Positions 10,351 through 47,880 of a DNA stretch of 64,000 nt are shown in pieces (within the stretch, counting starts at the first letter, position 1; each line of letters begins with the position of its first letter). Source of the DNA: Ascaphus truei. Lineage: Eukaryota > Chordata > Amphibia > Anura > Ascaphidae. The notes under the pieces were generated by a model. The model had not been told where the DNA came from. It did not search any database and worked only from the letters and a program-made list of their open reading frames with translations. The stretch is taken from NCBI GenBank assembly GCA_036426205.1, contig CM071570.1:50018984-50082983 (forward strand), read 5' to 3'. Both the position numbers and the translations under genes were made by a program.

Positions 10351-11213
10351 ATACATACATATGTAGATATCACAAATAAATCTATAGTCCACTTTCTCTG
10401 AACAGTTCTGTTGGATTTCAAAATTAAAATCATTTTTTGTTTAAGGTTTTTTTTTTCCAAATGGAAATGTGCCAACTGAAGGAGGGAGGGTTACTAGCAA
10501 ATAAAATACTCAGTCCAAAGGGTGGATACATGTCTAAGAACAATTCTGCTTTTCAAACAAGATGAAAAGTATTTTATCATCCAGCAGCTGACGACTTTCA
10601 GAGTGCAAACCCTGTTGTCTTTTATCTAATAGCTCAAGTACAGCCTCTAGCTAAAGAACTCCTAAAGATCCATCTCTGACACCTAGACTGCTTCAGTAAA
10701 TCTTTCTAACTCTTACTTCATACAGCTCATTCTTTAACAGGGTTCCCACGTCCTCCACCCTAACTTACTGTTGCTCACTGTCTAATTTGGAAACTATATG
10801 GTGATCCTTCTCACAACAGCTTCCTCCCGTCTCATATACTGTACATCTGAATTTTTTTGTAACATTTCCCAAACTCTCACTGAAACTAAAGTAGCACTGA
10901 TAGTTTTCCTACATCACGGCAATGCTTTGTAAGCCATTAAGGTAGCCAAAAGGGGTATGTCGTGTCATTTTTTTTTAATGTATTAACCTCTTGGTGCCTG
11001 TGGTATACCATGGCATCAAATGGGTTAATGTTATTTCAATCATATGCTTCTGTAATGATAGTTATTATTATACTCACAATGCGGTAATTCTCATAAATAT
11101 TCTCACAATGCGGTAATTCATTCATTATTAACAGTTGTGTTAATTTCCGCATCGCGACTTTGGGTTAAATATTGCACCCAGTAAATTATTACAGCTATGT
11201 GGATGTATACATA
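10351..11213. other. Non-coding stretch
   Basis: No gene or RNA gene seen. The only visible structure is a direct repeat of CTCACAATGCGGTAATTC at about 11,071 and 11,101, 30 bases apart. Confidence 0.45.
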
Positions 11214-11217
11214 TTAA

Positions 11218-11629
11218 AGAGGCAGTCCCAGCGGGCGAATTTTTTTAATGTTTTTTTTAATTTTATATATATTGTAGAATTGAAGCAGTGGGTCTCTGGA
11301 GCTGAACAGCGTTAATTACATCTCTGGGGACTCCCTGCGTCCGGAGATACCTGCAAATTCTCGGGAAGGAGGGTTCACATAATGGCCACTGTTCAGATAT
11401 TGCCTGTTAATATTTCCAATTAGCACAGGAAGCCGTGATGTCATTGGTGCGGCTTCCTATTGGCCCATGTGACGCAGGTGCTTTAAAACTTAAATCCCTG
11501 CTTGCTGAGCCGGATCGACTACTGGCACCTACTTTGGAGGTATGAGATTAACAGGGTTCAGCTCCGAAGAACCCCCGCTTCAATTCTATGTTCATTTTAT
11601 TTTTTTAATTGCTATCTTGGACTGCTCCT
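11218..11629. mobile_element. TTAA-flanked MITE (Kolobok- or piggyBac-like)
   Basis: The 412-bp unit starts AGAGGCAGTCC and ends GGACTGCTCCT, so the ends are inverted repeats with two mismatches. It is flanked on both sides by TTAA (11,214-11,217 and 11,630-11,633), the target duplication of Kolobok and piggyBac elements. The interior is moderately GC-rich and has no recognisable transposase. The ends do not begin with CCC as most piggyBac ends do, so Kolobok is the better guess. Confidence 0.72.
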
Positions 11630-24262: not shown

Positions 24263-26635
24263 CTATGGTCCTGTGATTGTGAAGGTCAGGGGGTCTGATC
24301 CTGGCCAAGGTTCCCATGTCGAATGGAATTGCGGCATTTTTTGCTTCAGCATTGCCGTTAATCTTTCCATAACCATGATTCCGTTTACCCTAGTGACAAC
24401 CGTTCTTCTGGATGGGGCTTTGATTTTCTTCCAGGCTGCTGCTATACAGCATCTGGCGGCCGTCAGAATCGCTGCCATGAGCCTGGTTATAGGGGGGGGA
24501 AGGTCATCGACTGGTTTTCCCAGCACATAGGTCAGAGGGTCTAGGGGTACCTCCACCTCCAGGGTCTCGGTCAGCAGGCCCTGGATCCGGGTCCAGAATT
24601 TTTGGATCTCCGGACATGTCCACCAAATGTGGGACATGTCCCCCCTTTGACCACATCCCCTCCAGCAATCGTCAGGAGTAGCTGGATAGATCTGGTTCAG
24701 TCTACTCGGGGTCAGGTACCAGTGGAATAATATTTTGTAAATATTTTCTTTTGTGATGGAACAAATTGAAGTTTTGGAAGCTGCCTCCCAGATATCCTCC
24801 CAGTCCTCTATGTCTATATTGGTGTTTAGTTCCTGGCTCCACCTTTTCATATATGCGTGGTTAGGGGAGGGTTGGGCCGCCTCTAGTGTTTTATATATCC
24901 CAGAGATGAGGCCTCTTTGGTACTCGCCTCTGAGGCAGAGGTTCTCAAATCTGGTGCACGACGGGAATTTTAAGCTAGGGGATAGAGTTCTCAAAAAATG
25001 GCGAATCTGTAGGTATTGGAATATAGGAAGATCAGGGGACGTTAGTTTGATTCTCAGTTCTCGGAGGGGCATGACCTCATCGCCTTCCAGCAAGTCCGCA
25101 ACCACTCTGATGTTTAGGCCTTGAAATTGGCTGAATTGGGGTCGGGAACAACCGGGTGGGAAATCCGGGTTCCCGAATAGAGGGGTCAATTGAGAGGGGG
25201 TTGAAGCTAGGCCATATTTCCCTTTGGTTTTCAACCATGTCGACCACGTGCATCTCATTGCTCCAAGGCTGAGTCTCGTGGGCCTCCTTCCCTTGTGGAC
25301 GTGAGTCCAAAGCAGGGCTGAGAGGGGGGTCGGGGACGCGTGGAATGTCTCTATTTCCAACCAACAATTGGAGGCCGGGGGGTTGTTCCAAACCACCGCC
25401 TGTCTCAGTTGTGCTGCCCGATAGTATCGGACCACGTCCGGCGCCCCCAGACCCCCTCTCGTCCTCGACGCCAAGAGTACCGACCGTGGGACCCTGGCTC
25501 TCCGTTGTTGCCAGATGAAGCGCAGTATATGGGACTGAATATTCCTTAAATCTGCTAATGGGACGGGGACAGGGAGGGTTTGAAAATAATAGAGCAGGCG
25601 GGGGAGGATATTCATTTTGGCGGATATTATCCTGCCAAACCATGATATTTGGTGGGTCTGCCAGGTCTCGAGATCTCTTAAGATCTGACGGAAAAGGGGA
25701 GGGTAGTTGGTTTGATATAATGAGCCATATGAGCTTGCTATTTTGACCCCTAAATACTTAATATGGGAACTATTCCATCTATACTTAAATTTCTTTTGTA
25801 GGGATGTCCATACGGGGTTCGGCAGTAATATATTGAGAGCCTCTGATTTGTCTGTGTTGACTTTGTAGTCTGAGAGGTGGCCAAATTGGTCTAACAGTTT
25901 TTCTAGGTTGGGGAGGGAAGTGAGGGGGTCTGATAGGGTAAGGATGATGTCGTCGGCAAACAGGGATATTTTATACTCCCTGTCTCCGACTAGGATTCCC
26001 TTTACGGATGGGTCTGTTCTAATTCTGGCGGCTAGGGGTTCTATAGACAGGGCGAAAAGTAAAGGGGAGAGGGGGCAACCTTGTCTAGTACCGTTGTGGA
26101 TTTTTATTGGATTGGATCGGCCACCCGGGAGTTTTAATATGGCCGTGGGGTTGGTATAGAGGGCTCGGACTCCTTCTAGGAACGGGCCTGAGAAGCCGAA
26201 CTGGCGCATTGTCTGGTCAAGGAAAGACCATTTGATCCGGTCAAAGGCCTTCTCCGCGTCGAGGCTGAGTATCAAGGCCTGGGACTTTTTGAGGTGCACG
26301 TGGTCTATAATGTCAATAATTTTGCGGGTGTTGTCAGAGGCCTGTCTTCCTGACACAAATCCCACCTGGTCTATATGAATTAGTCTCGGGAGAATAGGGT
26401 TCAGTCTGTTTGCTAGAATTTTGCTGAAAAGCTTGAGGTCAGTATTCAGTAGGGAAATGGGGCGGTAGCTGCCACATTGAAGTGGGTCCCTGCCCTCTTT
26501 ATGTATGATAGCCAAGTTGGCTGCCGACATAGTGCCTGGGATTTGTTCTCCTTGGAGAAATGAGTTAAACATTTCTAGGAGGTAGGGGGACAGGGATTTT
26601 GCTAATTTTTTTATAGTAACCGTTGGTAAAGCCAT
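24263..26635 (-). CDS. L1 ORF2 protein, part 2: reverse transcriptase and C-terminal Cys motif
   Basis: This is the downstream part of L1 ORF2. RT motifs in order are YRPISLLNTDLKLFSKILA (about residue 57), SLDAEKAFDRIKWSF (about 124), GTRQGCPLSPLLFALSIEPL (about 182) and the catalytic FADD at about 226-229. About 460 residues later comes the CWRGCGQRGDMSHIWWTC cysteine/histidine motif of L1 ORF2 C-termini. The Met at 26,635 is not a true start: homology runs upstream into the other frame (28,076-26,565). The change lies in a T7 run (A7 in sense) at 26,606-26,612; a length change there would explain it. Otherwise there are no stops across about 780 codons. The enzyme copies L1 RNA into a nicked target. 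Confidence 0.93.
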   Translation of the reverse strand: MALPTVTIKKLAKSLSPYLLEMFNSFLQGEQIPGTMSAANLAIIHKEGRDPLQCGSYRPISLLNTDLKLFSKILANRLNPILPRLIHIDQVGFVSGRQASDNTRKIIDIIDHVHLKKSQALILSLDAEKAFDRIKWSFLDQTMRQFGFSGPFLEGVRALYTNPTAILKLPGGRSNPIKIHNGTRQGCPLSPLLFALSIEPLAARIRTDPSVKGILVGDREYKISLFADDIILTLSDPLTSLPNLEKLLDQFGHLSDYKVNTDKSEALNILLPNPVWTSLQKKFKYRWNSSHIKYLGVKIASSYGSLYQTNYPPLFRQILRDLETWQTHQISWFGRIISAKMNILPRLLYYFQTLPVPVPLADLRNIQSHILRFIWQQRRARVPRSVLLASRTRGGLGAPDVVRYYRAAQLRQAVVWNNPPASNCWLEIETFHASPTPLSALLWTHVHKGRRPTRLSLGAMRCTWSTWLKTKGKYGLASTPSQLTPLFGNPDFPPGCSRPQFSQFQGLNIRVVADLLEGDEVMPLRELRIKLTSPDLPIFQYLQIRHFLRTLSPSLKFPSCTRFENLCLRGEYQRGLISGIYKTLEAAQPSPNHAYMKRWSQELNTNIDIEDWEDIWEAASKTSICSITKENIYKILFHWYLTPSRLNQIYPATPDDCWRGCGQRGDMSHIWWTCPEIQKFWTRIQGLLTETLEVEVPLDPLTYVLGKPVDDLPPPITRLMAAILTAARCCIAAAWKKIKAPSRRTVVTRVNGIMVMERLTAMLKQKMPQFHSTWEPWPGSDPLTFTITGP

Positions 26636-28076
26636 CCGGTCCTGGGGTCTTTGCTAATTTGAGTGAGGATATTGCTTTATCTAACTCTTCTTGGGTTATG
26701 CTCTGGTTTAAGAACTCAAGTTCTTCTTGTGAGAGGGAGGGGAGGTTGCATTGGGTTAGATAGTCGGTGGTGCTCTCATCATTGGGGTCTGACTGATTGA
26801 TGGGGTGGAGGTTGTAGAGGTCGGTATAGAACTCTGCAAATTCCCGGGCAATATCTTTCTCATTATATGAGATTTGACCACTTTTGGTTTTGATTTTTGT
26901 TATCTGGGTCTTTGTCTTAATGCCTCTTAGTTTTGAGGCCAAAAGTTTGTCCGCTTTGTTACCCCTATCATAGAACCGCTGTTTGGTCCATTTCAGGGCT
27001 CTCTCTACCTCGTCAAGTTGGAGTATTTTTAGGTCGGATCTCGCTTTCTCAAGGGTTCTAAACACCTTTCTCGATTGGGATTGTTTATGCAGTTGCTCTA
27101 ACTTTATGATTTTTTCGGTTAGTTCTTTCTGGGCTTTCTGTTTAATTTTTTTCCTATAGGAGGCTAGCGATATGTGTTCCCCTCTTATAGTGGCTTTGTG
27201 GGCTTCCCAGAGCATTGCTGCTGCCGGGACCGAGCCTTTGTTTAACTGGAAAAAGGTGTGCAGTTTTTGTTTAATTGTCTTGATCACTTGTGGGTCGTTG
27301 AGAAGCGAGTCACTGAGTTTCCAGGAATATACTGTTGTTTTGACGAAGGGTAGAGAGAGGGTGAGTATGATAGGGGCATGGTCAGACCAGGTTATTGGGC
27401 CTATGTCGGAATGGGAGGATGCCTGGAGTACATTGTTGGTGCCCAGAAAGTAATCGATCCGCGAGTAAGACTGATGGGGGGTTGAGTAGAAGGAATAGTC
27501 CCTCTGGCCCACATGCTGGGTCTGCCAAATGTCTGTCAGCGAATACTCTCTGATAGTGTTCTGGAACTTTTGGGCCTTTTTCTGCAGTTGGCTAGAGTAT
27601 GGGGTCGCTGTCTGCCCTGATCTATCTTGGTCCGGGTCAAGGACCATATTTGCGTCACCGACGAGGAGGAGGGAGGAAAGCGTCGAGTGGTCAAGGGTAC
27701 TAAGAAGGTTCTGGAGGAATTGGTTCTGTTTTGCGTTCGGGGCGTAGATGTTGAGAATGGCTATGGGGGAGCCTGACAGTGTGCCTTTGAGGAGTATATA
27801 TCGTCCCTCTGGGTCTTTGGTTACCTGTGTAAGGGCAAATGGGGTGTTGTTTTTAATCAGAATAGCCACCCCTCTTTTTTTGTTGGGGGAGGATGCAAAG
27901 AATGCTTGGGGATATGTATGCTTAAATGTGTTAGGAGGGTCAGCAGTGTTGAAATGGGTTTCTTGGATACATATTATATCTCCTTTGGTTTTTTTAAATT
28001 CTTGGAGGGCTAGTTTGCGTTTGCGTGTTGAGTTAAGTCCCTTAACATTCAGGGATATGATCTTTATTGACGCCAT
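26565..28076 (-). CDS. L1 ORF2 protein, part 1: APE-type endonuclease and linker
   Basis: The start is taken at 28,076 (MASIKIISLNVKGLN) because the conserved endonuclease begins there; the frame stays open upstream only through C-rich repeat. Apurinic-endonuclease-like motifs are SLNVKGLN (Asn 10), CIQETHF (Glu 39), NIYAPN, the GDANM box (Asp 141, Asn 143), SRIDYF and WSDHAPI (Ser-Asp-His 231-233), all catalytic positions intact. The linker ends with the L1-typical KTPGPDGFTNGYYKK at about residue 495, after which the frame is lost in an A7 run and continues in the 24,263-26,635 frame. The nuclease nicks target DNA at T-rich sites to prime reverse transcription. Confidence 0.92.
   Translation of the reverse strand: MASIKIISLNVKGLNSTRKRKLALQEFKKTKGDIICIQETHFNTADPPNTFKHTYPQAFFASSPNKKRGVAILIKNNTPFALTQVTKDPEGRYILLKGTLSGSPIAILNIYAPNAKQNQFLQNLLSTLDHSTLSSLLLVGDANMVLDPDQDRSGQTATPYSSQLQKKAQKFQNTIREYSLTDIWQTQHVGQRDYSFYSTPHQSYSRIDYFLGTNNVLQASSHSDIGPITWSDHAPIILTLSLPFVKTTVYSWKLSDSLLNDPQVIKTIKQKLHTFFQLNKGSVPAAAMLWEAHKATIRGEHISLASYRKKIKQKAQKELTEKIIKLEQLHKQSQSRKVFRTLEKARSDLKILQLDEVERALKWTKQRFYDRGNKADKLLASKLRGIKTKTQITKIKTKSGQISYNEKDIAREFAEFYTDLYNLHPINQSDPNDESTTDYLTQCNLPSLSQEELEFLNQSITQEELDKAISSLKLAKTPGPDGFTNGYYKKISKIPVPLPPRNV
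26606..26612 (-). other. Frameshifting homopolymer in L1 ORF2
   Basis: The T7 run (A7 in sense) lies exactly where the protein similarity passes from one frame to the other. It is the only inactivating change I see in ORF2. A sequencing or assembly error at a homopolymer is a real alternative. Confidence 0.75.
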
Positions 28077-31000
28077 TAATGGGGAAGGGGGGGTCTCGGG
28101 GTTAAACCCTTGTCCCTGAGGTATTCCCATGTCAGGGTCGGCTTGGGCCTTGTTGTGAGTATGCGGGGGGGGGTTTCTGTTGTGCCATAGGTAGGTGGTG
28201 GGTAGGGGAGGGGGGGGGAGGGGAAGGGTGGAGTAAGAGGGGAATGGGGGGGGGGGGGGCGACACAATAGGGCAAGAAAGAAGGTGGGCTGTCCTGGAGC
28301 CCGAAAAAGATTCCTCTTGACATTCTGGTGTCAAGGGGGGGGGGTACAAAAGACCCCTGGGAGAACTTTCGGGGCGTCACTCACAGATCGGAGCCAGGAA
28401 GCCGGGTCCGGCGCCCTCACTAGGTTGCGGGCAGAGAGGGGGGGGAGGGGGGGGGAACTTAACATATACGTAGTCCGCATGAGGTTTACACATTGCTCTC
28501 GGGAGGAGTACTTTTCCTAGACTGAATCTTCGCCTAAACTTTATGGTCATTGTCTATACAATCAGTATTGGCACATCTATTCATACATAGTGAGACAGGT
28601 TGGTCAGACATAGTAGACTTTGCCCGGGGGGAGAGGAGAGGGGTGGTGGGGGGGGCAGGTAGTGGGGGGGGGTGTTGGTGGAGAGGTGTAGAAGGGATGA
28701 GGTTTCTGGGAGAGAGGAGGGGGGAGGAGGGGGGGGGGCAGCAGGAGAGGGTGGGGGAGGCGGGAGGAGGGGGGGGAGGGGGGGGGAGAGATGGGGGGGG
28801 GAGGGGGGCTTGACTTTTCTCTTGCCAATGAGAGGGGGGGGAGGGGCTGGGGAGCGGGGGGGGGAGGGGGGAGGTAGGCGGGTGAGTGAGGGGGGTGAGG
28901 GAGGGCCAAGGTGGGGGGGGGGAGATAAAGGCGGGGGGGGTGTGGGAGGAGACCGATGAGAGGGGGGGAGAGAGAGAGGGAGGGGGGAGGAGAGGGGTGG
29001 GCGCTGTCTGAGGATGAGAGGGGGGGGAGGGAGAGGGAGGGGGAGGGGGAGGGGGGAGGGGGGAGGGAGGGGTGGGGGGGAGGGGGGGGAGAGGGGGGGG
29101 GAGGGGGGGGGGAGGGGGGGGGGGAGGGGGGGGGATTTGGAGGGGGGGAACTCACATATACATAGTGTCCACCTGTGGTTACATATTACTCTCGGGGGGT
29201 TACTTTTCCCTAGAGTGAATCTTCACCTAAACTTTATGATCATTTTCTATACATTCAGTATTGGCGTATATATTCCTACAGAGTAAAACAGCTTGGTCAG
29301 ATCTAATATCTTAGCTCTGGGGGGAGAGGGAAGGGATGAGGGTAGGTGGGGGGATGAGGGGGGGGAGGGAGGGGTGGGGGTAGGTGAGGGGATGAGGGGG
29401 AGGAGGTTGGGAGGGGTGGGGGGGGGAGGGAGAAGGGGGGGGGAATAAGAGGGGGGGAGCACAATATTTACATCATCAGCATAAAATTGAAACATTGCCT
29501 TCTGGGGGAGATCTTTTCCCCAGTCATGATATCGCATATCGCTTGTGGGTGTCCTTTATACATTCAATATTGGAGTATGTCTCAACACGGAGTGAGACAG
29601 GTTGGTCAAACACATCCAGCATGGGGAGGGGAGGGGGGAGGGGGGGGAGAGAAGGGGAGGGGGGGGGGAGGGGGGGGGGGAGAGGAGGAGAGGGGAGGGA
29701 GGGAGGGCGAGGAGGGAGGGGAAGGGGAGGGAGCGGGATCTTGGGCGGGGGGGGGGGGGGGGGAACTCGACATATACATCGTCCACCTGTGGTTTACATA
29801 TTACTCTCGGGGGAGTACTTTTCCCTAGAGTGAATCTTCACCTAAACTTTATGATCATTTTCTATACATTCAGTATTGGCGTATATATTCCTACAGAGTA
29901 AAACAGCTTGGTCAGATCTAATATCTTAGCTCTGGGGGGAGAGGGAAGGGAGGGGGTAGGTGGGGGGATGAGGGGGAGGAGGTTGGGAGGGGTGGGGGGG
30001 GGAGGGGGGGAGGGGGAGGGAGAAGGGGGGGGGAAGGGGAATAAGAGGGGGGGAGCACAATATTTACATCATCAGCATAAAATTGAAACATTGCCTTCTG
30101 GGGGAGATCTTTTCCCCAGTCATGATATCGCATACCGCTTGTGGGTGTCCTTTATACAGTCAATATTGGAGTATGTCTCAACACGGAGTGAGACAGGTTG
30201 GTCAAACACTACCAGTGGGGAGGGAGGGGGGGAGGGGGGGGGAGGGGGGGGAGAGGGAGGGGGGAGGGGGGGAGAGAAGGGGAGGGGAGAGGAGAGGAGA
30301 GGAAGAGGGGGAGGGGGGAGGGAAGGAGGGAAGGGGGGTGGGGAGGGTGGGGGGGAGTGGGGGGGGCTGGGGGGGGGGGATAGGGGGGGGGGGAAGGGGG
30401 AGGAGGGGTGCATTTTATTACAACATCCATCATTATTTGGGGGGGCACTCCTAAGGGGAGCTCCCTCTTATGGGCTCTGGGCATGCTCCGTTCATACAAA
30501 ACCTGCTTGTTGTGAGTAGGGGGGGGGGGGCGGGGGTCACCCGCAGCAGTCTTTGGTGCTTGAGTTTGTCAGAGAGTCCCGGGTCTCTGGCCCGGAGCTG
30601 GTCTCCTCTGGGTGGGGTTAGTGGCGGGTTCTCATCTCGCGAGGGCGTGGAGAACGAGACATACGGAGTAGCGCGGATGCTGATCCCCGTCCCTGGAGCT
30701 CGGATCCTAGCGGGCGTTGTCCCTTGGTTCCTGCGGCCTCGGCGGGAACACAGGGGTGAGTAGGTTGGTTACTCTGGTTAACAAGCGGGGGGGGGGGGGG
30801 TGAAGGAGAGGGACCGTAGTGGGGAGGGGTGGAGGAGGGGGGGGAGGAGAGGGGAGGGGAGAGAGGGGGGGGGTCCGGCAAGAGTCTCTGGAAGGAAGGT
30901 CTGTTAGAGGGCGTCTTGGTTCTCGGCCACGGGGTCGGGCCTCCTCCGCTGGGGCCGTGCTGTTATCTGCTCATTGAGATCGCGCGAGAGGGGCCCTGGT

Positions 31001-31409
31001 GGACTTGCAGGGGAGGCGCAGGTACTGAGTCTCGCCGGTGCCTGGAATTGTGGGAGCGAGCATGAAAGAGGTGAGGGAGGGGGGGGGATGACGGGCGGGG
31101 GGGGGCGGGGGGATGTAGGGACGAGGGAGGAGAGTGGGGTGGGGGGGGAGAGGAGGGTGTGGGGGGGGGGGGGAGGGGTGGGGGGGGGGGGCGGGGGGAG
31201 GGTGTGGGGGGGGGGAGAGAGGGTGTGGGGGGGGGGGGGGGTTTGCAAGTAGCTGTGTCAGGGCCTGTAGGGTCTCCGTGCCTTTCACATCTTGGGGGAT
31301 TTTGGCGGCAGGCGCTGCTTCAATCCTCCAGGGCCTCTAGAGTTGTGGGTGTGTCTGTGAGGGAGACTTGCGAGTTTCTGAGTCCCACTAGGCAGCAGGG
31401 ACATCTGGT
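28077..31409 (-). repeat. L1 inter-ORF spacer: C-rich (sense) tandem repeat region
   Basis: About 3.3 kb between ORF1 and ORF2, dominated on the plus strand by GGGGAGG/GGGGGG tracts (for example 28,620-29,150, 29,620-29,765, 30,215-30,410, 31,075-31,240), thus C-rich in L1 sense. Interspersed are related islands of about 170 bp beginning near 28,455, 29,148, 29,455, 29,763 and 30,053, so most of the region is a roughly 300-bp tandem repeat; the pairs at 29,148+29,455 and 29,763+30,053 form a recent higher-order duplication. Glycine-, arginine- and proline-rich frames crossing it are repeat artefacts. The plus strand has very high G-quadruplex potential. Confidence 0.88.
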
Positions 31410-32402
31410 TCACGGGGCCGTTTGATAGCCAGTCTCTCCGATGCTCGGGGGGTTTCTTGGGGGCCGTCTCTGGACGCTGGCCGTCTGTGAGGGGGCGCGT
31501 TTGTTCTTCGGTGGGGGGAGTGGGATCCCTAGAGCTTTTAGGAAGTCCTTTGAGTCCTCAGGTGTGGATATTGTATAATGGCGGCCATTGCGGAGCACCA
31601 CCAATTTGAAGGGGAACCCCCAGCGGTATTTAACCCCTTGGTCTCTGAGGTAGGTGGTGAGTGGGCGCATCGCGTTTCTCTTGTTGATAGTTAGTTGGGA
31701 GAGATCATTAAATAGTTGGATCTGTACGCCGTCCATTGATACTGAACGCAGATCCCTGGCGGCCATCATGATGCGCTCCTTTGCAGAGTATGCGTGCATT
31801 CTAAGCACCACATCTCTGTGACGGTTGGGGTCTGCTGACTTTGGGCCTAGGGCTCTGTGAGCTCGGTCAGTGTGTAAATCATGGTCTGATAAGTCGGGGA
31901 CAAGCTGTAGGAAGAGCCTGCGGAGGTAAGGTTGTAGTTCCTCATGTGTGATGTCCTCAGGCATATTTTTAAGGCGGATATTCTGCCTTCTTTCCCTGTT
32001 TTCAAGATCCTCTAATTTGTTCTGTAAGTCGCGGATCGCATCCCCGCATCTCAGGACTTCCTCGTGGGTCTCAGCTTGCTCGTTTGATATTCCCTCCACT
32101 TTGCTCTCTAAGTCTTCTGTTCGCTCCGTTAGCGCTCCTATTTCGGCGCGTATGGTCTGGAGGGCTTTTTCGGTGTCTTCTTGGACCCCTCTTCTCATTT
32201 TGGTGACGAGAGCGTCAAAAAATTCTTTATTTAGAACGGGGGGGTCCTCATCAGCCGGGCTCTGTCGGCCGCTTGGCGCCTCGTGCTCCGGATCTCCCTC
32301 GGCGCCATCTTGCCCATCAGGGCTGATACCAGCCAGGCGCTGTGCCGGGGGGAAAAACTTGGTTACCGGGTACTGATTTTTCTTTTGAGATTTCCCTGTC
32401 AT
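31410..32402 (-). CDS. L1 ORF1 protein (RNA-binding coiled-coil chaperone)
   Basis: A 330-residue protein with the L1 ORF1 (Transposase_22-like) layout. It has an acidic, proline-rich N-terminus, a heptad-rich coiled coil at about residues 60-138, then RRQNIRLKNMPEDI opening the RRM-like domain (about 139-215), TDRAHRALGPK, and a C-terminal domain with INKRNAMRPLTTYLRDQGVK and WGFPFKLVV up to about 292. ORF1 proteins trimerise through the coiled coil and coat L1 RNA. The start at 32,402 is the first Met of an uninterrupted frame, about 145 bases from the element's 5' end. It is full length and intact, which supports recent activity. It lies 3.3 kb upstream of ORF2. Confidence 0.93.
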   Translation of the reverse strand: MTGKSQKKNQYPVTKFFPPAQRLAGISPDGQDGAEGDPEHEAPSGRQSPADEDPPVLNKEFFDALVTKMRRGVQEDTEKALQTIRAEIGALTERTEDLESKVEGISNEQAETHEEVLRCGDAIRDLQNKLEDLENRERRQNIRLKNMPEDITHEELQPYLRRLFLQLVPDLSDHDLHTDRAHRALGPKSADPNRHRDVVLRMHAYSAKERIMMAARDLRSVSMDGVQIQLFNDLSQLTINKRNAMRPLTTYLRDQGVKYRWGFPFKLVVLRNGRHYTISTPEDSKDFLKALGIPLPPPKNKRAPSQTASVQRRPPRNPPSIGETGYQTAP

Positions 32403-38809: not shown

Positions 38810-40886
38810 TTTATAGACAAGGATTATTGTCATTTTAGCCTTTCGTTGAACAATGAATTTAGGGAGCAGTAGATGGAAATGGTCCTGAGATCTTACCTTC
38901 TTGGGAAACAAAACACATACAGGAGAACTGTTGAAGTGAAATGTTCTATGTCCATCATTTAGATCCAGGAAGGAGGATCCAAAGGGGTCGTTAACAAAAA
39001 GGGCCTTAGAAACCATGGAAGTGTGAAATACCACAAATGAACTGACCCAGAGAAATTGGTATATTTCTTGCACCTGTAGTTGTTTTACAATCTACTGGGA
39101 GTGTTCATTAGTCACACCATTAACACTCTTCTGCAACAATGTTATGCCTCTCACACGCGATTATTTAGAAAATGGTATATGACTACCTGAATGAGCTGTA
39201 GTAAAGTAAATGAGATTTAGTAGCACAGAGAAACAAGTCAATTAGGTATATGTACTGTATAAAGAGGTGGGAAAAAAGTTTTTTTTGTTCATTTTTTTAC
39301 TATTTTGCGATTTTCTAAAACATCAGTCACATCCAGGTATTTTAGCAATGATGGGAAGATAACAGTAAAAGAGTGAACAGTAATATTATGAAAAACAAAG
39401 AAAGAAAGGATACCAATTTGTGGGGCACATTGTAATGAAACATTTTTGGGGCATTATTGCAGTGAGTACCGACATGCAGTTTGAAAAGAGATGTTATTCC
39501 ACAAATAAGCTTGTCCTAGCCAGCTTGGATTTTCCAAGTTTTTGTAGTTTTAATTCTTAGTCACCGTTCTTTACTGTTGGAATGCAAATCCTGGGTTCAG
39601 CCAAGGAACTGTTAGCAGTGAGTGAGAGTTAATGGATCAATCTGCTCTGTCTTGTCAGTGCTTTTACTGCGGACTTCTGGAATGTGTTTGATGAAAAGAA
39701 AGCTACTTCTTGAGACAGAAGATACAGATGTAACATGTAGAGGTTCGGACCTACAGGAACAATAAAGCAATGTTATCAGTGGTTCGTTTTTCTAGTACCT
39801 TATGCCAAACTGACAATAGAAGACCAAGAAAGTATTTTTCTGTTGTGTTGTAGTTAACCATTTATTCAGTTCTTTTCTGTATTCCTTATTTATTTTATAG
39901 CAAATGTCGAGAGGGTTTTGCCCCTTTTTTTTACCCACCATAACTTATTTAATGTGTGGGTTATTTTAGCAATGCGGTCTTTATTTGCAATAGAATAGAA
40001 ACATTTGAACATTTAACATATTATAGCAGTGTTACATTAATAAAGATAACATGTAGAACAACCCACATTTATTTCCATTAAATTTCTACTGTGTTTCCCT
40101 GATCTGTAGCAGATGTCACAGAAATTATCTTTTAATTAAATATATGTGCTTTACCTTTTTTCTTTGATTTACTCAACTACAGGTTCCTCTCATTTGTCCA
40201 TGTTAGTGCTTGTAATGCCATCCTATATCAGACGTTGCTTAAATAAAGATTTTCCTTTTAGATTTTTGCCCCCCCCCCTTTTTTTTTTTTTAACAATTAG
40301 CACATTAATGATTTTTACATACTTCAAAAGTTTATTTTAAGACTTGGCAGATGGAGACAAAATAATGAATGATTAACAGATTGCTTCTTTAGCCATCTGT
40401 GATTGACATCTGTTTACATGAGTTTTTATGCCCTCTGGCATTTCCTCAAGTAAATGGATGATTGTATTATCAGCACAAGCCAGACAATTGATGTATCAGT
40501 AGAATCAGTATCTTTTGCTGAAAACGTAAACACTTGACAGCATGTTGTAGCAATAGTAGAAAGTGAAATGTAGCCAGGGTGATAAGAGAGATATACATTA
40601 AAGATTGTAATCAACATTTCAGATCCACAATTCCAAACATCTTTGTATAATATGGACTCTCTCAAATCATGTGCTTCCTATACAGCAGAGTTTTTAAACT
40701 CTGGCTCAAAATCCCAAGAGTTTGTACTGTATAAACAGAAAGTATACTTTTTAGACAAACGTTGTTTTCGTCCATAGTTAAAATAAAGCTATGTCTAAAA
40801 AAACACAATGAAAATAACTTTTCTTCATTGTCTGCATAAAGTATAAAGGATTCTTGACTGTATTTTGTTCTGCAGATGTTTCATTG
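38810..40886. other. AT-rich non-coding stretch
   Basis: No supported gene or element between the fold-back and the forkhead/BEN element. Confidence 0.45.
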
Positions 40887-41078
40887 TACTGCTGCGGCTC
40901 ATCTGAGTCTAACACATCGCCGGTTTTTACCTGGCTTTTTCCTGGAATGCGACGCACTTCACCTGGAGCATGCCGCATTCATTTTGCGTTCTCAGCCACG
41001 GGTCAAGCGCGGTTGACGCGCGGTTGCTGCGTTTATTGAGAATTGTTCGGATTTAATAGGTTGCAATTCTTCGCATGT

Positions 41079-41092
41079 CCGCCAGATGGCAG
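41079..41092 (+). promoter_or_regulatory. CTCF-like motif
   Basis: CCGCCAGATGGCAG fits the degenerate CTCF core at every position. It lies upstream of the forkhead frame, 20 bases before an NRF-1-like site. A single motif match is weak evidence of binding. Confidence 0.3.
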
Positions 41093-41108
41093 ATATTCAT
41101 GAATTGTA

Positions 41109-41121
41109 ATGCGCATGCGCT
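41109..41121. promoter_or_regulatory. NRF-1-like palindrome upstream of the forkhead gene
   Basis: The sequence ATGCGCATGCGCT contains the NRF-1 core GCGCATGCGC. A second copy, GGCGCATGCGCAG, lies near the opposite end of the element at about 46,497. NRF-1 sites often mark TATA-less promoters; use here is inferred. Confidence 0.35.
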
Positions 41122-41300
41122 TCAGTAAAGTGTCGACTTGCAGGTGTTTCATGTAAAAAAGATACCACAGTGTGCTATTGTAACTTGGCCTTGAGACTGG
41201 AGGAAGAGGTTGCAAAAATGTATCAATTTAGGCTTTTCATATTAAAGAAAGACAAAGACCAGTTTCGGTTTCAGTATTCTCCAGAGACCCGCCGCCCGCC

Positions 41301-41632
41301 ATGAGTGTTCAAGTGCAGCCCGCTTTCCAAAAACCCGACAGAAGTTACGCGTATTTGATATGGGCCGCGATTAATGCTACAGAGGATTAGATGGCAACAG
41401 TTGTTCAAATTTATCAGTATTTTATCGAAAACTATGACTTTTACAAATTTTCGCCAGCTCCTCATACATGGAAGCGTGCAATAAGGAAAAGTTTATGTAG
41501 CGATCCCTGTTTTTATCGTATTGAGCCACAATTTGTTGGAGGGTATTGGTGTGTATTACCGGCTTTTTCCTGTATTTATGATAATGATGACGGCAAAAGA
41601 CGAAGGGTCGTGTTAAAACCAACTAAGAAATG
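41301..41632 (+). pseudogene. Forkhead (FOX-like) domain protein with one in-frame stop
   Basis: Starting at an ATG in good context (GCCATGA), the frame reads KPDRSYAYLIWAAIN, then a TAG at 41,388-41,390, then MATVVQIYQYFIENYDFYKF, TWKRAIRKSLCSDPCFYRIE and VGGYWCVLP. This is the forkhead winged helix in full order: KPPYSYxxLIxxAI, IYQFIxxxFPYYR, WQNSIRHSLSxNxCFxKV and GxYWxLxP. The stop replaces the usual Lys (one base change from AAG). In the recognition helix the DNA-contacting Asn and His of NSIRHS are Arg and Lys (RAIRKS). The basic tail KRRRVVLKPTKK may be a nuclear localisation signal. Downstream frames up to 41,890 look like a decayed C-terminal part. It could be a dead host-gene copy, but the enclosing TIRs argue for a transposon passenger. 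Confidence 0.82.
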
Positions 41633-42700
41633 ACAGTCGCTGCCAAGCAATGCACCAGCAACGGCTTCCAATGACGGTCCCACCGTCAGTGACAACCCTT
41701 GTTGTCTATCCAGCAAGCCTTAGCCGGATTTCGCGTGCAGTTTAGATCAAGCTTGCATGTAACTAAGCAATTTCCAGCCTCATCAGCTGACTACAGGTGG
41801 ACTAGTCCCACTGCAAACTATCGACGTGGATGATCAAGAACACTGGACTGGCAGTGGACCGGCGCCGGCGCTAGCTGAATGGGAAATTCTATGGTGAGTA
41901 TTGTTAGTATTGTTGCCGTATTATTTTCTGTGTTTTTTTTTATTTTGACAATGCAGTATCAATATCGGTGCGATTCGAAAGTCAAGCGATTCTCCTGTAA
42001 GCAATATCATTGGCTGAGCGGCTTCTACAGTACTGTACTGCAGATACTGAACAATTGGTGGAATGCTAGACGCATGCACATTGGAACCTTCTTGAAACAC
42101 ATATGCGTGTCATTACATCGACGGTAGGCACGTGCGCATGTGAACAGGAGACGCCCCCCGAGAAAATTATTGGTGGGACTGGCTGGGAGCGTCTTTAGGG
42201 GCTGACCATTACAGTAAAACTTTTCTTTTTGTTTTTGCTCAGAAAAGAAAACGGCTAATGGAGGGGTTTCTATGGCTAATATCGCTTTGTCTAACAATGC
42301 CTGCACATTGCTGAATCGGATTTAAAAAGCCACGTACCGGAGTCTACAGTTTAGCGGCCGTTGTTATTGATTAGGATAGAATACCTGAAACAGTATGCTG
42401 ATGTTTTCCGGCCGTACAGTATACAATACTTTTTTATATACAGTATACTGTGTAATAAACCCGAAAAAATAAAAACTATGCATTTATTCTACATGTATTA
42501 CAGTGCCAGTACATACAGTACAGTACAGTACAGTATGTGTCTTCTATTTTTTTTACTACTCTTATACTGAGCATGCCTACAGTATACAGTGCAGTATGCA
42601 TCGACATTCTAGAAACACTGTATTTTGTTACAGTAGCAAAGGAGCCAATGGAACAATGTAAAACAAATAAAAATGTTCTTTTATTGGTGGAGTAAGTACA
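41633..42700 (+). pseudogene. Possible decayed downstream part of the forkhead gene
   Basis: After the forkhead stop codon the same region keeps coding-like texture (for example TIDVDDQEHWTGSGPAPALA near 41,800) broken by stops. A good 5' splice site, ATG|GTGAGTATT, at 41,894 and an acceptor TTTGACAATGCAG at 41,956 would define a 63-base intron. Nothing here matches a known domain. Beyond 42,130 I see no coding signal. Confidence 0.3.
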
Positions 42701-42799
42701 AAAACATTTATTTACAAATACTGTTCAATGTAGAAACATTTTAAGTGCACAGCAATTCAAAATATCAACAGGTGTATGGTTTACTGCTACAGTTGTGAA

Positions 42800-43521
42800 A
42801 ACATTTATGTCAGTCAGTATGGTTTACAGTCACATGTTTTAAAAACAAATTCTTTATTCATAAAATAAACATATATATTCAAAACATATACTGTACAGTG
42901 GGATGGTGTGCAAAACAGTCTGCACCAGTACAGTCCTTGAGGGCAGCAAACAGGGCGGGTTTTCAGGGTAACCTTTGAAAACTGTGCCTGTTTGCGGCCC
43001 TCAGGAACTGGAATTGTGCAGGTCCTGTGTGTGTTCAGCAAGTTAAAACATTTCTGTATAAATACAAGTTAAAAAACACACAACAACATCTCCTTTATTT
43101 AAGTACAGCAGGTCAAATCATGTAGAGTACAATACAGTTCAGCACAACAGTATGGTCTTACCTGTGATTACAAAAAAAACTTTATTCATAAAATACAGTA
43201 TACGAACGAAACATCTCCTTTATTAAAGAAACATATACAGTACAGTGGGATGGTGTGCAAAATTGTCAGTCAGACCTGCACCACTACAGTCCTCGAGGGC
43301 AGCAAACAGGGCAGGTTTTGAGGACAACCTTGAAAACCGTGCCTGTTTGCGGCCTCAGGGACTGGAATTATGCAGGTCCTGTGTGTGTGGACAGCAAGTT
43401 AAAACATTTCTATATAAATACAAGTAAAAAAACACACAACAACATCTCCTTTATTCAAGTACAGCAGGTCAAAACATGTACAGTACAGTACAATACAGTT
43501 CAGCACAACAGTATGGTCTTA
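42800..43521 (-). repeat. Tandemly duplicated 3' UTR-like region (period about 350-361 bp)
   Basis: Two copies (about 42,800-43,161 and 43,162-43,521) share TTTATTCATAAAATA, CAGTGGGATGGTGTGCAAAA, the GAGGGCAGCAAACAGGGC block, AAACACACAACAACATCTCC and CAGCACAACAGTATGGTCTT. The junction falls within the stop codon region of the BEN frame. On the minus strand each copy supplies AATAAA signals. An inner palindromic segment (CCTTGAGGGCAGCAAACAGG against CCTGTTTGCGGCCCTCAGG) resembles a hAT MITE. Confidence 0.7.
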
Positions 43522-44873
43522 CAGAAAGTCCTCCACATTGTCCGTCCATGGTCGATTCCTTGCATGGCGCAAAACGCCATTAATGCAGTCTCGAACGCCT
43601 TTCATTACAGGATCTGTAATTGGATAAAAGCGCCACATTTCATCCAGAATGTTCTTTCTTAAATTGGCAGGAAGCGCCTTTTTTACGCGATTTCCTTCGT
43701 AGTTCACTCTGAAGGCCCAGTCGCAGTACAACGAGTAGGGAACATGGTGCTTAAAAAGTAACAAGGCATACTTGTGGGGTGCACCAGCACTCTTCACCCT
43801 ATACTTCTCCGTGAGCGCCGGTGGCAGATCGCACAGGGTGATGTCTGGCACCGTATCGATGCGAGCGAATGTAGGTCTTTTGGGAGTGGGTGTGCTTGAG
43901 GCGACGGGCGATGGTAGGTTGTCTGGGAGGAAGCTTCCCTCCGGTCTTGGTCGCCGTGTTGTCTCCTGGCATGGTCTTGACTGGGTTGTCAAGTCCTCTT
44001 CAACGGCATACATGTACACTACATCTTCTGGTGGAGGGGTTGCGCTTGGTGATGGAAGGGGGTCGAAGGTCCCATTCATCACATCCATGTCACCCCCCTG
44101 CTCCAGTGTCGGGGAAACAGGGGCATTAAAACTGAGCAAATAATGTATACCCGCTATGTAGACTCTATCTTCTCCATCCTTCGATCCATCCATTGTTGCA
44201 TATGTATCATCCGTTGCTCCACATTTAGCATGGTCTCCAGAAGCAAATCTATCTTTGCTAGCACAATAGAGTTCCCGGGGAGATCCACAGTTATCCCATT
44301 CAGCATCCGGTCTAACGAGCTGCTTCTTGTGCATGGCGTCTGGAAATCTGGGTGGATGGGTGCAATGGATGATGAGATGTCGGATCCATGGAGAGAAGCG
44401 GCAGCGACGTCGAAGAAGGGTGGAGGAGGTGACCCGTGGATATCCGGTAGAGGAGAAGCGGCAGCGTCGTCGAAGAGGGATGGAGAAAGTGACCTTTGGA
44501 TTTCTGGGAGGGCGGCGGCAGCGTCGAGGACGAGGGGTGGAGAAGACAGGCTGAAGATTTCCGGGACAGCGGCGGCAGAGTCGTCGAAGCATATGTGAGG
44601 AAGTGGTCTGCGGATTCGATGGGTTGGCTGCCAATCGTTTTGCATCGAGAGTACATCACCGTATATCTTCTTGACATAATAAGGCTGACGTCTATGAAAA
44701 CCTTTAGCCTTTGGGGTCAGCAGAAGATTTTCTTTATTGGCCTTAGCCTGTCGCTTTTGCCTTGGCGGGGAAACGGCAACCACCTTTCGCTTTTTCTGCT
44801 TGACAGGCACGGCAGAGGCGAGTGGGTTCCTGCGTCCGTAGAATCGGGGTTGATCCATGGAAGCAGATGGCAT
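43519..44873 (-). CDS. BEN-domain protein, split between two overlapping frames
   Basis: The N-terminal part (44,873-44,154, 239 residues) is basic (KQKKRKVV, PPRQKRQAK), then has about four imperfect 20-residue repeats rich in Ala, Pro and Ser (FDDSAAAVPEIFSLSSP type), and ends in NVEQRMIHMQQWMDRRMEKI. Coding then continues in the frame of 44,634-43,519: EDRVYIAGIHYLLSFNAP, a Pro/Thr-rich linker, and at about 43,806-43,550 GAPHKYALLLFKHHVPYSLY, WAFRVNYEGNRVKKALPANL, then MWRFYPIT, RDCINGVLRHARNRPW. That arrangement (LLxxLxP...G...LPxxL...FP...R..INxxLR) is a BEN domain, a DNA/protein-binding module of host regulators and some DNA viruses. The frame change near 44,155-44,165 suggests an indel; an intron is possible. 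Convergent with the forkhead gene. Confidence 0.72.
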
Positions 44874-45121
44874 ACAGTAATGCAGTATCTGGACAAGGGC
44901 AAGTTCAGATAAAGATCATCGAGTGGTGGGCTATGCAAAGTGTGTAACCTTTTTTGCATGGCGGCGAGGTACAGGTGTTGAAAGTGGGCGTACTCTAATG
45001 TGAGTCATTACCGTAAATATACACCATCCATTTTGTGGATTCACTGCACATTGAATACACATCGACTAAACATCGAATATACATTCTTGTGTTTGTGTTT
45101 GTATTTCTTTCTACTCGCAGC

Positions 45122-45725
45122 AATGGTTGTTAAAAAGTTTTCGAAGGTAATTAATATCCTTCATTCTTACCGCGGCGAGATGCTGTATTGCGGCCTCCTG
45201 GAGGAAAACAACAGTCCCGGCACTGAACACGATTAAAAAGCGAATTAGCGAGGTAATGATCATGGAAAGGCTTACCGCCACCGTGAGGCATAAAATCCCC
45301 GCTTACGAAGCTATCTGGGAACCTTGGTTCCTCCTCTCCAGAGACCGCCACCCAAACCCAACAAGATAGAGGCCTACTCTCCCCCCCCCCCATATGGGAC
45401 TCAGTGACGACCCCACTCAGAGTTCTACCTACCAGTCAAATGGTTCAGCTGCACAGCTGTTCTGAGGTGGGGTTGGATCCCCTCAGTTTTTGTGTATTTT
45501 TAATAAATTACCTTCCACTAATCCCTGGTGCGCATTTGTACATTTTTTATTATCTTGTTTTTCAGGGTGCCTTCCCCCCTTTCTAAGGGGGGTTCACCTA
45601 GATTTGAGAGTTTCTGGGGAGACGCTTTATGTACATGCTGCAAAGGGATCATCCACACCATCACACAGCACGAGCGCTGAATATCCTGTTTTTTCAACCC
45701 CCAAATACAGTACATAAAAAGCAAG
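45122..45725 (+). pseudogene. 5'-truncated L1 ORF2 C-terminus
   Basis: From about 45,168 a forward frame gives TAARCCIAASWRKTTVPALN and SEVMIMERLTATVRHKIPAY, then EAIWEPWF. These match the end of the full L1 in this window (TAARCCIAAAWKKIKAPS, MVMERLTAMLKQKMPQF, STWEPW). The protein ends soon after and an L1-type 3' UTR follows to about 45,725. It is a short dead-on-arrival copy inserted in the forkhead/BEN element. The first bases (45,122-45,167) may belong to the host element. Confidence 0.75.
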
Positions 45726-45892
45726 TCACTTTATCTCCCTGTGTCTCAGGCACCAAAAACATAGATTGTGAGCTCCACGGGACAGGGACCTGTGCCTGCA
45801 AAATTTCTCTGGAAAGCACTACGTTCTATATACTGTAACTAACAGCGCTATACAAAAACATGCTATTATTATTATTATTATTATAATATCAA
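45722..45892 (+). repeat. MIR-like SINE tail fragment
   Basis: AGCAAGTCACTTTATCTCCC, then CTGTGTCTCAGGCACCAAAA, ATTGTGAGCTCC...GGGACAGGGACC and AGCGCTATACAAAAACATGC match the 3' part of the SINE at 51,185-51,420. It ends in a TAT/ATT trinucleotide tail. The tRNA-like head is missing. Confidence 0.75.
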
Positions 45893-45960
45893 GGTGATGC
45901 TCTGTGCAAATAAAATTCGAGAAGGGATTTTCCAAAACGTTGCCGTAAACAAAGCCTCAA

Positions 45961-46229
45961 AGCTCCAGTCTCAAAGAGAATTGCACGCAGGCGCAGTGAG
46001 GCTTTGTACTGTAGCTCGGCTATGGACGGATTAAGAACACAATTGCAAGATTCAAAAAATTAACGACTCTGTGGAGAGGAGGGGTTGGGTGACTCATGCG
46101 CAGTAAGCAGCTAAACAGCTAAGCAGCTAAATAGCTCCCATCTGAAAAAGGATTACACGCAGGCGCAGTGAGGCTTTGAAGATCGGCTATGGACGGATTA
46201 AGAACACAATGGCAAGATTCAAAAAATTA
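45961..46229. repeat. Direct duplication of about 105 bp
   Basis: GCACGCAGGCGCAGTGAGGC through GATTCAAAAAATTAA occurs at 45,961-46,066 and again at 46,131-46,229. CTAAGCAGCTAAATAGCT-type words lie between them. Not coding. Confidence 0.75.
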
Positions 46230-46449
46230 AAGACAGCCGCATGAAGTTCAAAGCTAAAGACATACTTTAATTTCAAAAGGCAGTTCATCATAATAATACA
46301 CCCCCAAATACATTACTTAAAAAGCACACAAATCAACCATGTGCAGTCAAATGCACAGGGTCGCAGACAAAAGCTACAGCACAGATTGAATATCATAATA
46401 CAGTAAGATGGTTTTTGCAGGCTTGTGAAGAAAAAAAAAATTACAATAA

Positions 46450-47055
46450 TTTTTTTTTTCACTCACTCAAGCAAGCAGTGGTGGGTGAAGTTACAGGCGC
46501 ATGCGCAGTAAATTCCTGCTGTCAAGCAGGAATGTGATTGAAACCAGACACACGTTCAAAGGAATGGTGTGGGAGAGATGTACTGCATTGCACAGAAGAT
46601 AAGAAGTTGAAATACCCTGCAGTGCAGTTAATTATCCTGAGCGAGGAGAGAGCGCTGTATATGCCGAAATGTGACACTGTTACAGTACAGTACACGCTTA
46701 TGCGTTTCAACAATTTTCAAATAAGACATACTGTACTGTACTGCAGAACAGCACTGCAAATGCATGTATACTTTAAATATGCAAATTTACAATTACTGCG
46801 CGCGCACACACAGACTGTGTACTGACCTAAGTTGAACCGCGAAGGTATTAGACTTCCAAGACAACAGCTCGCAAACGCCCCCCTGAGTTTTTACACGGCA
46901 TTGCAGTATTGCAGACAGCGAGAATAAAATGCTAATATCACGAGCGCGAAAATAACGCAGTTCACTCCGGGCGAAAATGACAAAAAAACGCACATAACCG
47001 GGATAATCTGAGAACCGCGGATCTAGCCGACTTAGACTCAGATCGGCCGCCACTG
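46450..47055 (-). other. Right terminal region of the forkhead/BEN element
   Basis: CpG-rich DNA with an NRF-1-like GGCGCATGCGCAG near 46,497, many TACAGTACAGTA words, and the TIR. No ORF with a domain. It could hold a promoter, but no gene for it is visible. Confidence 0.35.
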
Positions 47056-47059
47056 TATA

Positions 47060-47880
47060 ATTACTACATTCACATATTTAAAAAAAATACCAATATAACC
47101 ATATACTAACTCTTTCTCTATGTCCTCTAGCCATATGTAAAATCAAACATGTTTTGATTTACATAAAAATAAATAAATGTGTCTATCTATACAGATAAAC
47201 ATATACAGTTTTATATTCTTTATCATCATTAAAAGAATCAATACATTTGCCGGCAACAAAGAAAACGTACAAATTTACCGTAGTTCAATAACAGACTTCC
47301 TGTTTAAGTGTTGCGAAATATTGTGATGAGTGCATGGTGTACTATTACAGAGACATTATTTTGTAAACAGAAATTTAGATAGAAAAAGGTGAGAAGAAGG
47401 AAAGAAAAGGGGAGACAAAAAGAAAAGAGTGGGAAAAGTAAACAGACAGAAACTTAAATTTCTAGAAATAATAATCTGCTGACATGATGGCTGGGGTAAT
47501 ATTGTGTTAAATATATAGCCATATTCATTAATTGAGACTGTCAATAGTCATATTGAAATGAATGGTAGTTTCCATGCGATAGTGCCCTGATCTTCACTCT
47601 AGCAATTTAATGAATAATCCCCATAGCGGCACTAGTGAAAACGATTAAAAATATGGTAGAATAATCTAATTCTCCACATATCGAACGTAGACAGACTACA
47701 GGGAAAAAGGAGATAATTGCTAGGCTGTAAAAAACAAGCAAGACAAAATTTAAATCAGTAATGCTGAGGCCATGTACCAGGATTTCATGGGCAGGCAATG
47801 TTGAATAAGAAGCCTTATTAAACTGGAAACTGGGAGCCATGCTTGTATGAATGCAAAACAAAGTGACAGAGTTTCTGACA
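47060..47880. other. AT-rich non-coding stretch
   Basis: No supported gene. A single MITE-like end, TTTAATGAATAATCCCC, lies near 47,608. Confidence 0.4.

Follow-up and report, generated by a model that had tools for sequence, protein, structure and literature searches.

The window, a stretch of 64,000 nucleotides of Ascaphus truei DNA, contains a unit bounded by inverted repeats, in which a forkhead coding exon on the plus strand and a second gene on the minus strand are opposed to one another. An earlier note, made from the sequence alone, had described inverted ends adjoining TA, a forkhead frame, a BEN-domain frame and no visible transposase. A comparison with further copies in the genome revealed that the unit belongs to a Tc1/mariner-type family, of which it is a copy with an internal deletion and devoid of a transposase of its own. 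There is little doubt that the unit represents a multi-gene Tc1-like element. It is also quite probable that a forkhead protein or exon and, in opposed orientation, a second gene are additionally encoded by this cut-and-paste family; the splicing and regulator mechanism that is proposed below is held with less certainty.

A repeat search of the window detected the inverted ends described in the earlier note as a pair of 30 nt with 80% complementarity (40883-40912 / 47032-47061). The features of the copy are compiled in Table 1.

Table 1. Features of the element copy, given as positions in the window.
Feature	Position	Strand	Basis
Left TA target-site duplication	40887..40888	.	Sequence; TA before 21/21 left ends
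Left terminal inverted repeat CTGCTGCGGCTCATCTGAGTCTAA	40889..40912	+	Repeat search, copy comparison
Forkhead coding exon, ATG to splice donor	41301..41893	+	PF00250, copies
Splice donor of consensus type (GTGAGT) directly behind the forkhead frame; its phase is 2 when the exon has the common length	41894..41899	+	
Second gene	43519..44873	-	BEN-like by eye alone; Pfam without match
Leftover start of transposase exon 1	45121..45147	+	Last base of the acceptor CTCGCAG is 45120; start codon ATG at 45123
Foreign or rearranged stretch replacing the remainder of exon 1 through exon 5	45148..45891	.	
Right subterminal region common to the family	45892..47055	+	Copy comparison
Right terminal inverted repeat, inward CAGTGGCGGCCGATCTGAGTCTAA	47032..47055	-	Repeat search, copies
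Right TA target-site duplication	47056..47057	.	Sequence

The forkhead frame of the window copy is interrupted by stops at 41388-41390 and 41631-41633. The second gene of this copy is spread over two minus-strand frames that overlap (44154-44873 and 43519-44634), apparently split by a frameshift near position 44150. Exon 1 of the transposase is interrupted at 45147, and the right part of the family resumes after 45891. The stretch in between contains the C-terminal coding end of open reading frame 2 (ORF2) of an L1-like long interspersed nuclear element (LINE), with 51% identity over 59 amino acids to the frame at 24263-26635, and its remainder up to 45891 resembles a short interspersed nuclear element (SINE; labelled by eye). 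The window copy lacks a transposase because the LINE 3′ fragment and the SINE-like sequence take the place of exons 2–5 and of the larger part of exon 1.

Copies, target sites and transposase of the family

The first 512 bp of the element were used as a query against 2.82 Gb of genome sequence on 19,235 contigs. Forty left ends were scored, i.e., that of the window and 39 more with 96–97% identity, spread over many contigs. A first look gave 3594 candidates for the left end, 13522 for transposase exon 5 and 10292 for the second gene, numbers that are unconfirmed as copies. Twenty copies were fetched as genomic stretches around the matches (designated L0xx), with extra 3′ sequence for 15 of them. 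Together with the window copy they form a set of 21 copies, in 14 of which the right end lies outside the fetched stretch.

A TA directly precedes the left end in all 21 copies, with differing flanks, and the imperfect terminal inverted repeats of 24–30 bp are the same across copies. Seven copies have both ends, namely those in the window (6167 bp), L014 (7510 bp), L021 (7697 bp), L022 (8487 bp), L023 (12610 bp, with insertions), L024 (8115 bp) and L026 (5364 bp), and all seven are flanked by TA on both sides. When the joined flanks were compared with the other fetched stretches, three alignments covering two copies revealed empty sites with a single TA and about 92% identity (the L022 site in L040 and L016, the L023 site in L025; one base beside the TA differs for L022). 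For the remaining five joined flanks no empty site was found in the fetched stretches.

The gene content was counted between the two ends; in the 14 copies mentioned above the count ran from the left end to the border of the fetched stretch. The forkhead stretch was present in all 21 copies, the second gene in 16 and at least one transposase exon in 13, the 3′ half of these 13 containing exons that the window copy lacks. In the 14 copies a match can come from a neighbouring copy, as is the case for the exons in L011, which belong to a divergent second copy. The 40 left ends formed five pairs of at most 12 kb with the top 150 second-gene matches (one being the window), all on opposite strands at distances of 2.0–2.6 kb, and three pairs with the top 150 exon-5 matches, all on the same strand. 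Between the top 150 second-gene and the top 150 exon-5 matches eight pairs of at most 20 kb were observed, compared to 0.32 expected by chance; six of these were on opposite strands, four of them 2.9–4.9 kb apart. L012 joined with L043 contains two element copies at 1249 and 9026 (element orientation) with the same left flank. This points to the locus having been duplicated in tandem, and less to two separate insertions.

The probability that host genes in conserved synteny happen to lie between ends of miniature inverted-repeat transposable elements (MITEs) is vanishingly small. No point in its support was found, and it is contradicted by the 40 left ends on many contigs and by the forkhead stretch behind every left end of the set. 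Separate MITE ends were ruled out, as both ends share insertions. Of the objections raised in the earlier note, separate MITEs and a single-copy locus in synteny are both excluded.

In all six two-ended copies besides that of the window, transposase exons lie between the same ends (exons 1–5 in five copies, exons 2–5 in L026). The absence of a transposase was thus correctly observed for the window copy, but it does not extend to the longer copies. The gene is a Tc1-like DDE gene of five plus-strand exons with GT/AG signals at the joins. Exon 1 encodes the first helix-turn-helix (HTH)-like part and has its own ATG right behind the acceptor, exon 2 encodes the second HTH-like part, and exons 3, 4 and 5 contribute the first catalytic D, the second D and the E, respectively. 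The spliced L023 protein matched Pfam DDE_3 with E=6.8e-17 and the Sleeping Beauty chain 5cr4_A with E=7.6e-12; before the joins had been placed exactly on the splice signals, the values were 3.6e-15 and 2e-10, respectively. For the paired-like bipartite HTH region of the superfamily, the PAI subdomain of Sleeping Beauty gave E=0.036. In P0005, a protein from Ascaphus, the joins between exons 1, 2 and 3 agree with the predicted splicing.

A relative of the L023 protein is P0007 (337 amino acids), with 51% identity over 97%; the Latimeria "Tcb1 transposase" (P0008) has 51% over 79%, and further kin comprise proteins from carp, a mormyrid and a mussel. In a tree of 24 rows the query and three Ascaphus sequences were placed inside a clade of 10 rows with a support of 100/99, which also includes Latimeria, carp, mormyrid and three metagenome rows. 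The TA duplication, the ends and the DDE transposase show that the element belongs to the Tc1/mariner superfamily. By definition, the second D and the E of the DD34E Tc1 family are separated by 34 residues. As 32 residues were counted by eye in both the spliced model and P0007, the element was filed in the superfamily, outside DD34E Tc1 proper.

The further copies with TA duplications, the empty sites and the longer copies with a DDE transposase, which the earlier note had proposed to look for, were all found. Its description as a non-autonomous element with captured regulators fits the window copy. Its alternative, a new transposon lineage, is partly right; the family is a new form within a known class, being Tc1/mariner by TA duplication, empty sites and DDE_3 in the longer copies. 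Its last proposal, the remains of an integrated DNA virus, has become extremely improbable. The earlier note mentions BEN domains in some viruses, and a title in the reference list of PMC5704228 refers to DNA viral proteins; against this stand the TA duplications, the empty sites and the Tc1-like transposase, and neither the forkhead stretch nor the second gene had a relative in IMG/VR contigs (pattern scan and tblastn). No viral genes were noticed among the frames of the element, although no systematic search for viral core genes was made.

The copies belong to a subfamily A and a divergent subfamily B, the latter represented by one copy (L011 joined with L035). Compared with three A copies, the B copy has 66–89% identity by segment, and it holds the forkhead stretch, a second gene of which just the initial codons are left, and the complete set of five transposase exons, arranged as in the A copies. 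Its exon 4 is split by a MITE-like insert. The latter has about 400 bp, is flanked by TA, has the ends CACTGGCGACACACTTTATTC / CTGCACCGACACACTTTATTC (L011+L035, about 10975-11385), and part of it resembles the left region of the big element with 74% identity. By eye, the Ascaphus proteins P0003 and P0004 resemble the B type.

The forkhead exon and the opposed second gene

The forkhead frame seen in the earlier note was verified with Pfam. PF00250 was detected in an 80-aa piece from the window (E=1.2e-8, 35.4 bits) and in the open frame of L016 (E=1.1e-14, 54.7 bits, gathering cut-off 27). L010 and L016 have an uninterrupted frame of about 200 codons, and a manual count revealed no stop from the ATG through the domain in 12 of the 25 forkhead stretches of the fetched copies. 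It ends with CTATG, directly followed by GTGAGT. Donor contexts were collected with a pattern requiring TCTATGGT; 21 of the 22 have GTGAGT and L014 has GTTAGT, while the pattern did not match in L018, L026 and the second forkhead stretch of L012. When joined to exon 2, the forkhead stretch was in frame in four of six testable copies (L013, L021, L023, L027) and out of frame in L022 and L024, which have shifted exon lengths. When joined to exon 1 in the common phase, a stop follows four residues on, overlapping the ATG of the transposase. As the frame ends at a consensus donor and its phase fits exon 2, the forkhead stretch may serve as an alternative coding exon at the 5′ side. The phase by itself would match by chance in one case out of three, and the consensus donor behind the frame is the stronger sign that the stretch is an exon.

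The element shares the forkhead domain with the FOX transcription factors (PF00250), but differs from them in residues of the recognition helix. The best solved relative is FOXP3 (E=4.3e-9), and the alignment has WKRAIRKRL in the element and WKNAIRHNL in FOXP3, a block that we take to be the recognition helix. Because these residues differ, the forkhead domain of the element likely has another DNA specificity than FOXP3. FOX-type motifs (RYAAAYA) number 17–29 per copy, about 2.8–3.4 per kb compared to 2.7 per kb in the rest of the window, which is no clear enrichment. Another motif, TACTGTA/TACAGTA, occurs 53 times in the window compared to 8.8 expected, and in five copies (window, L014, L021, L022, L024) it is about tenfold denser than in the rest of the window.

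The second gene encodes 456 amino acids in L012 and 535 in L017, both counted from stop to stop on the minus strand, and by manual count at least 40 of its top 150 matches lie in open frames of at least 400 amino acids. Pfam searches with two long frames and four C-terminal pieces yielded no family at E<=10, and thus also no match to the BEN family PF10523; sequence and profile searches of the PDB with the second gene retrieved no relevant chain. A single-sequence structure prediction was all-helical and too poor to use (predicted local distance difference test score, pLDDT, of 45). The opposed minus-strand gene reported in the earlier note is real, but the likeness of its C-terminal block to BEN-domain proteins is by eye only and was unconfirmed by Pfam and PDB. 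The protein database contained two relatives of the forkhead stretch and two of the second gene, all from Ascaphus truei; one of these searches scored the best 7997 candidates, and the forkhead search was limited to proteins of at most about 350 amino acids. In one Ascaphus truei gene model (P0002) about six tandem repeats similar to transposase exon 2 are followed by the start of the second-gene protein.

Selection and the proposed role of the two additional genes

Between the subfamilies, omega was 0.29–0.46 for the transposase (five A copies) and 0.83–1.06 for the forkhead stretch (three A copies), values that depend on one degraded B copy. Within subfamily A, omega of the second gene ranged from 0.59 to 2.23 over 10 pairs. 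The ratios of nonsynonymous to synonymous changes common to at least three copies were 5:7 for the transposase, 14:2 for the forkhead stretch and 17:5 for the second gene, and omega for these shared changes was near 1 in the latter two. Singletons had values of 0.66, 1.08 and 0.88, respectively, and for the forkhead domain alone the ratio was 5:1 for shared changes and 71:13 for singletons. The sample comprised 24 forkhead stretches, 18 second genes and 12–14 stretches per transposase exon; a B-type forkhead stretch may be included, tandem duplicates are counted twice, CpG changes were omitted and site totals are unadjusted. Fisher tests gave p=0.017 for the forkhead stretch and p=0.023 for forkhead stretch plus second gene, each versus the transposase (small counts, uncorrected). 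These substitution patterns indicate that the transposase was under purifying selection while the family spread. For the two additional genes they could reflect adaptive change or little constraint; we read them as fast change, and relaxed constraint fits equally well.

The following mechanism is proposed. Transcription from the left end would yield a pre-mRNA with the forkhead exon, a large intron and transposase exons 1–5, and the second gene would lie on the opposite strand inside this intron. By alternative splicing either exon 1, which encodes the usual first HTH, or the forkhead exon would be joined to exon 2. The products would be a Tc1-like transposase of the ordinary kind plus a forkhead version of it or, alternatively, separate forkhead and transposase proteins, and the additional DNA-binding proteins could be element-encoded regulators or targeting factors of transposition. 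We moderately favour the view that the forkhead stretch and the second gene have a function for the element and are not just carried along. That the forkhead exon is an alternative first coding exon, giving a forkhead–transposase fusion, is put forward only tentatively, and equally tentatively this fusion would bind other DNA, while the nested antisense gene would be a second, fast-changing regulator.

Several results weigh against this mechanism. No purifying selection was detected for the forkhead stretch or the second gene, as would also be expected of passengers. A forkhead–transposase fusion was not seen, as none of 23 transposase relatives had a precomputed forkhead domain; relatives of 184–586 amino acids were admitted, so that a fusion of about 470 would fit. 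TACTGTA was rejected as a binding site, because aligned sites were kept between the subfamilies less often than control 7-mers (5/20 vs. 450/1094, 7/25 vs. 493/1118 and 7/20 vs. 439/983). HTH_Tnp_Tc3_2 reached 17.6 bits with the L023 protein, the cut-off being 31.5. Two of the eight second-gene/exon-5 pairs are on the same strand, and among the six on opposite strands two have distances of 7.9 and 19.9 kb. The right end is outside the fetched stretch for 14 of the 21 copies, subfamily B is known from one damaged copy, and we infer splicing, translation and any role of the two additional genes from sequence.

The possibility that forkhead stretch and second gene are passenger cargo, i.e., captured host or foreign pieces amplified without a role in a Tc1-like element, is regarded as unlikely. 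It would agree with the mostly nonsynonymous shared changes, with the higher omega of the forkhead stretch than of the transposase between the subfamilies, with the second gene being undetected in five of the 21 copies and with the missing fusion protein. However, copies of both subfamilies have a forkhead frame with about 200 open codons (with a stop at codon 4 in the B copy), the forkhead signal in L016 is still strong, and in subfamily B the forkhead stretch and the transposase are again found together with at least the first part of the second gene. A composite, in which an older, unrelated element with forkhead stretch and second gene received a Tc1-like insertion and the pair spread jointly, is very improbable. 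The two additional genes do differ from the transposase in selection pattern and database reach, but no inverted repeats were found to flank exons 1–5 in the single copy examined for them, L022. The sequence at the acceptor of exon 1 is the same in the copies in which the pattern found it and in the divergent L011 copy, and the outer ends themselves produce TA duplications. A nested transposon comprising exons 1–5 was likewise rejected, as flanking inverted repeats were not found in L022, the only copy covered.

Known systems and neighbouring repeats

Tc1/mariner elements are regarded as minimal, with one gene and two ends. Compared with Tc1-like transposons such as Sleeping Beauty and the Latimeria Tcb1 (P0008), the element is alike in its TA duplication, its DDE_3 transposase of about 332 amino acids and its similarity to Sleeping Beauty. 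In contrast, it has 7.5–8.5 kb in four two-ended copies instead of the usual 1.5 kb or so, its transposase is split by four introns and accompanied by two extra genes, the D-to-E spacing is 32 instead of 34, and its left end starts with CTGC and its right end with CAGT. Transposons with an accessory DNA-binding protein are known, i.e., Harbinger with a Myb-like protein and En/Spm with TnpA. These are alike in having one catalytic gene and a separate DNA-binding gene, but differ in superfamily and DNA-binding fold. The element would resemble a self-mobilising cut-and-paste transposon with accessory DNA-binding genes, the function of the extra genes being presumed.

The superfamily itself is known; a Tc1/mariner transposon combined with a forkhead exon and another regulator-like gene did not come up in a limited search of open-licence papers, in which no title reported a transposon with forkhead or BEN genes. 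In PMC5704228 the term "BEN domain" occurs once, among the references, and PMC12822217 gives a size of 3.72 Gb for an Ascaphus truei assembly, while the word "mariner" is absent from it. If the interpretation is true, an intron-bearing lineage of about 8 kb with thousands of candidate places would indicate that the superfamily can gain and keep transcription-factor domains. It would then allow a direct test of how transposons acquire new DNA-binding specificity, and of the exchange of parts between transcription factors and transposases.

The L1-like LINE of the window is located at 24263-28349 and 31410-32402 (minus strand). It contains ORF2-type frames of 790 and 594 amino acids and an ORF1-type frame of 330 amino acids (all named by eye), and a relative of its 3′ end sits within the transposon copy. 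It is adjoined by G-rich tandem arrays of about 2.5 kb at 28714-31241.

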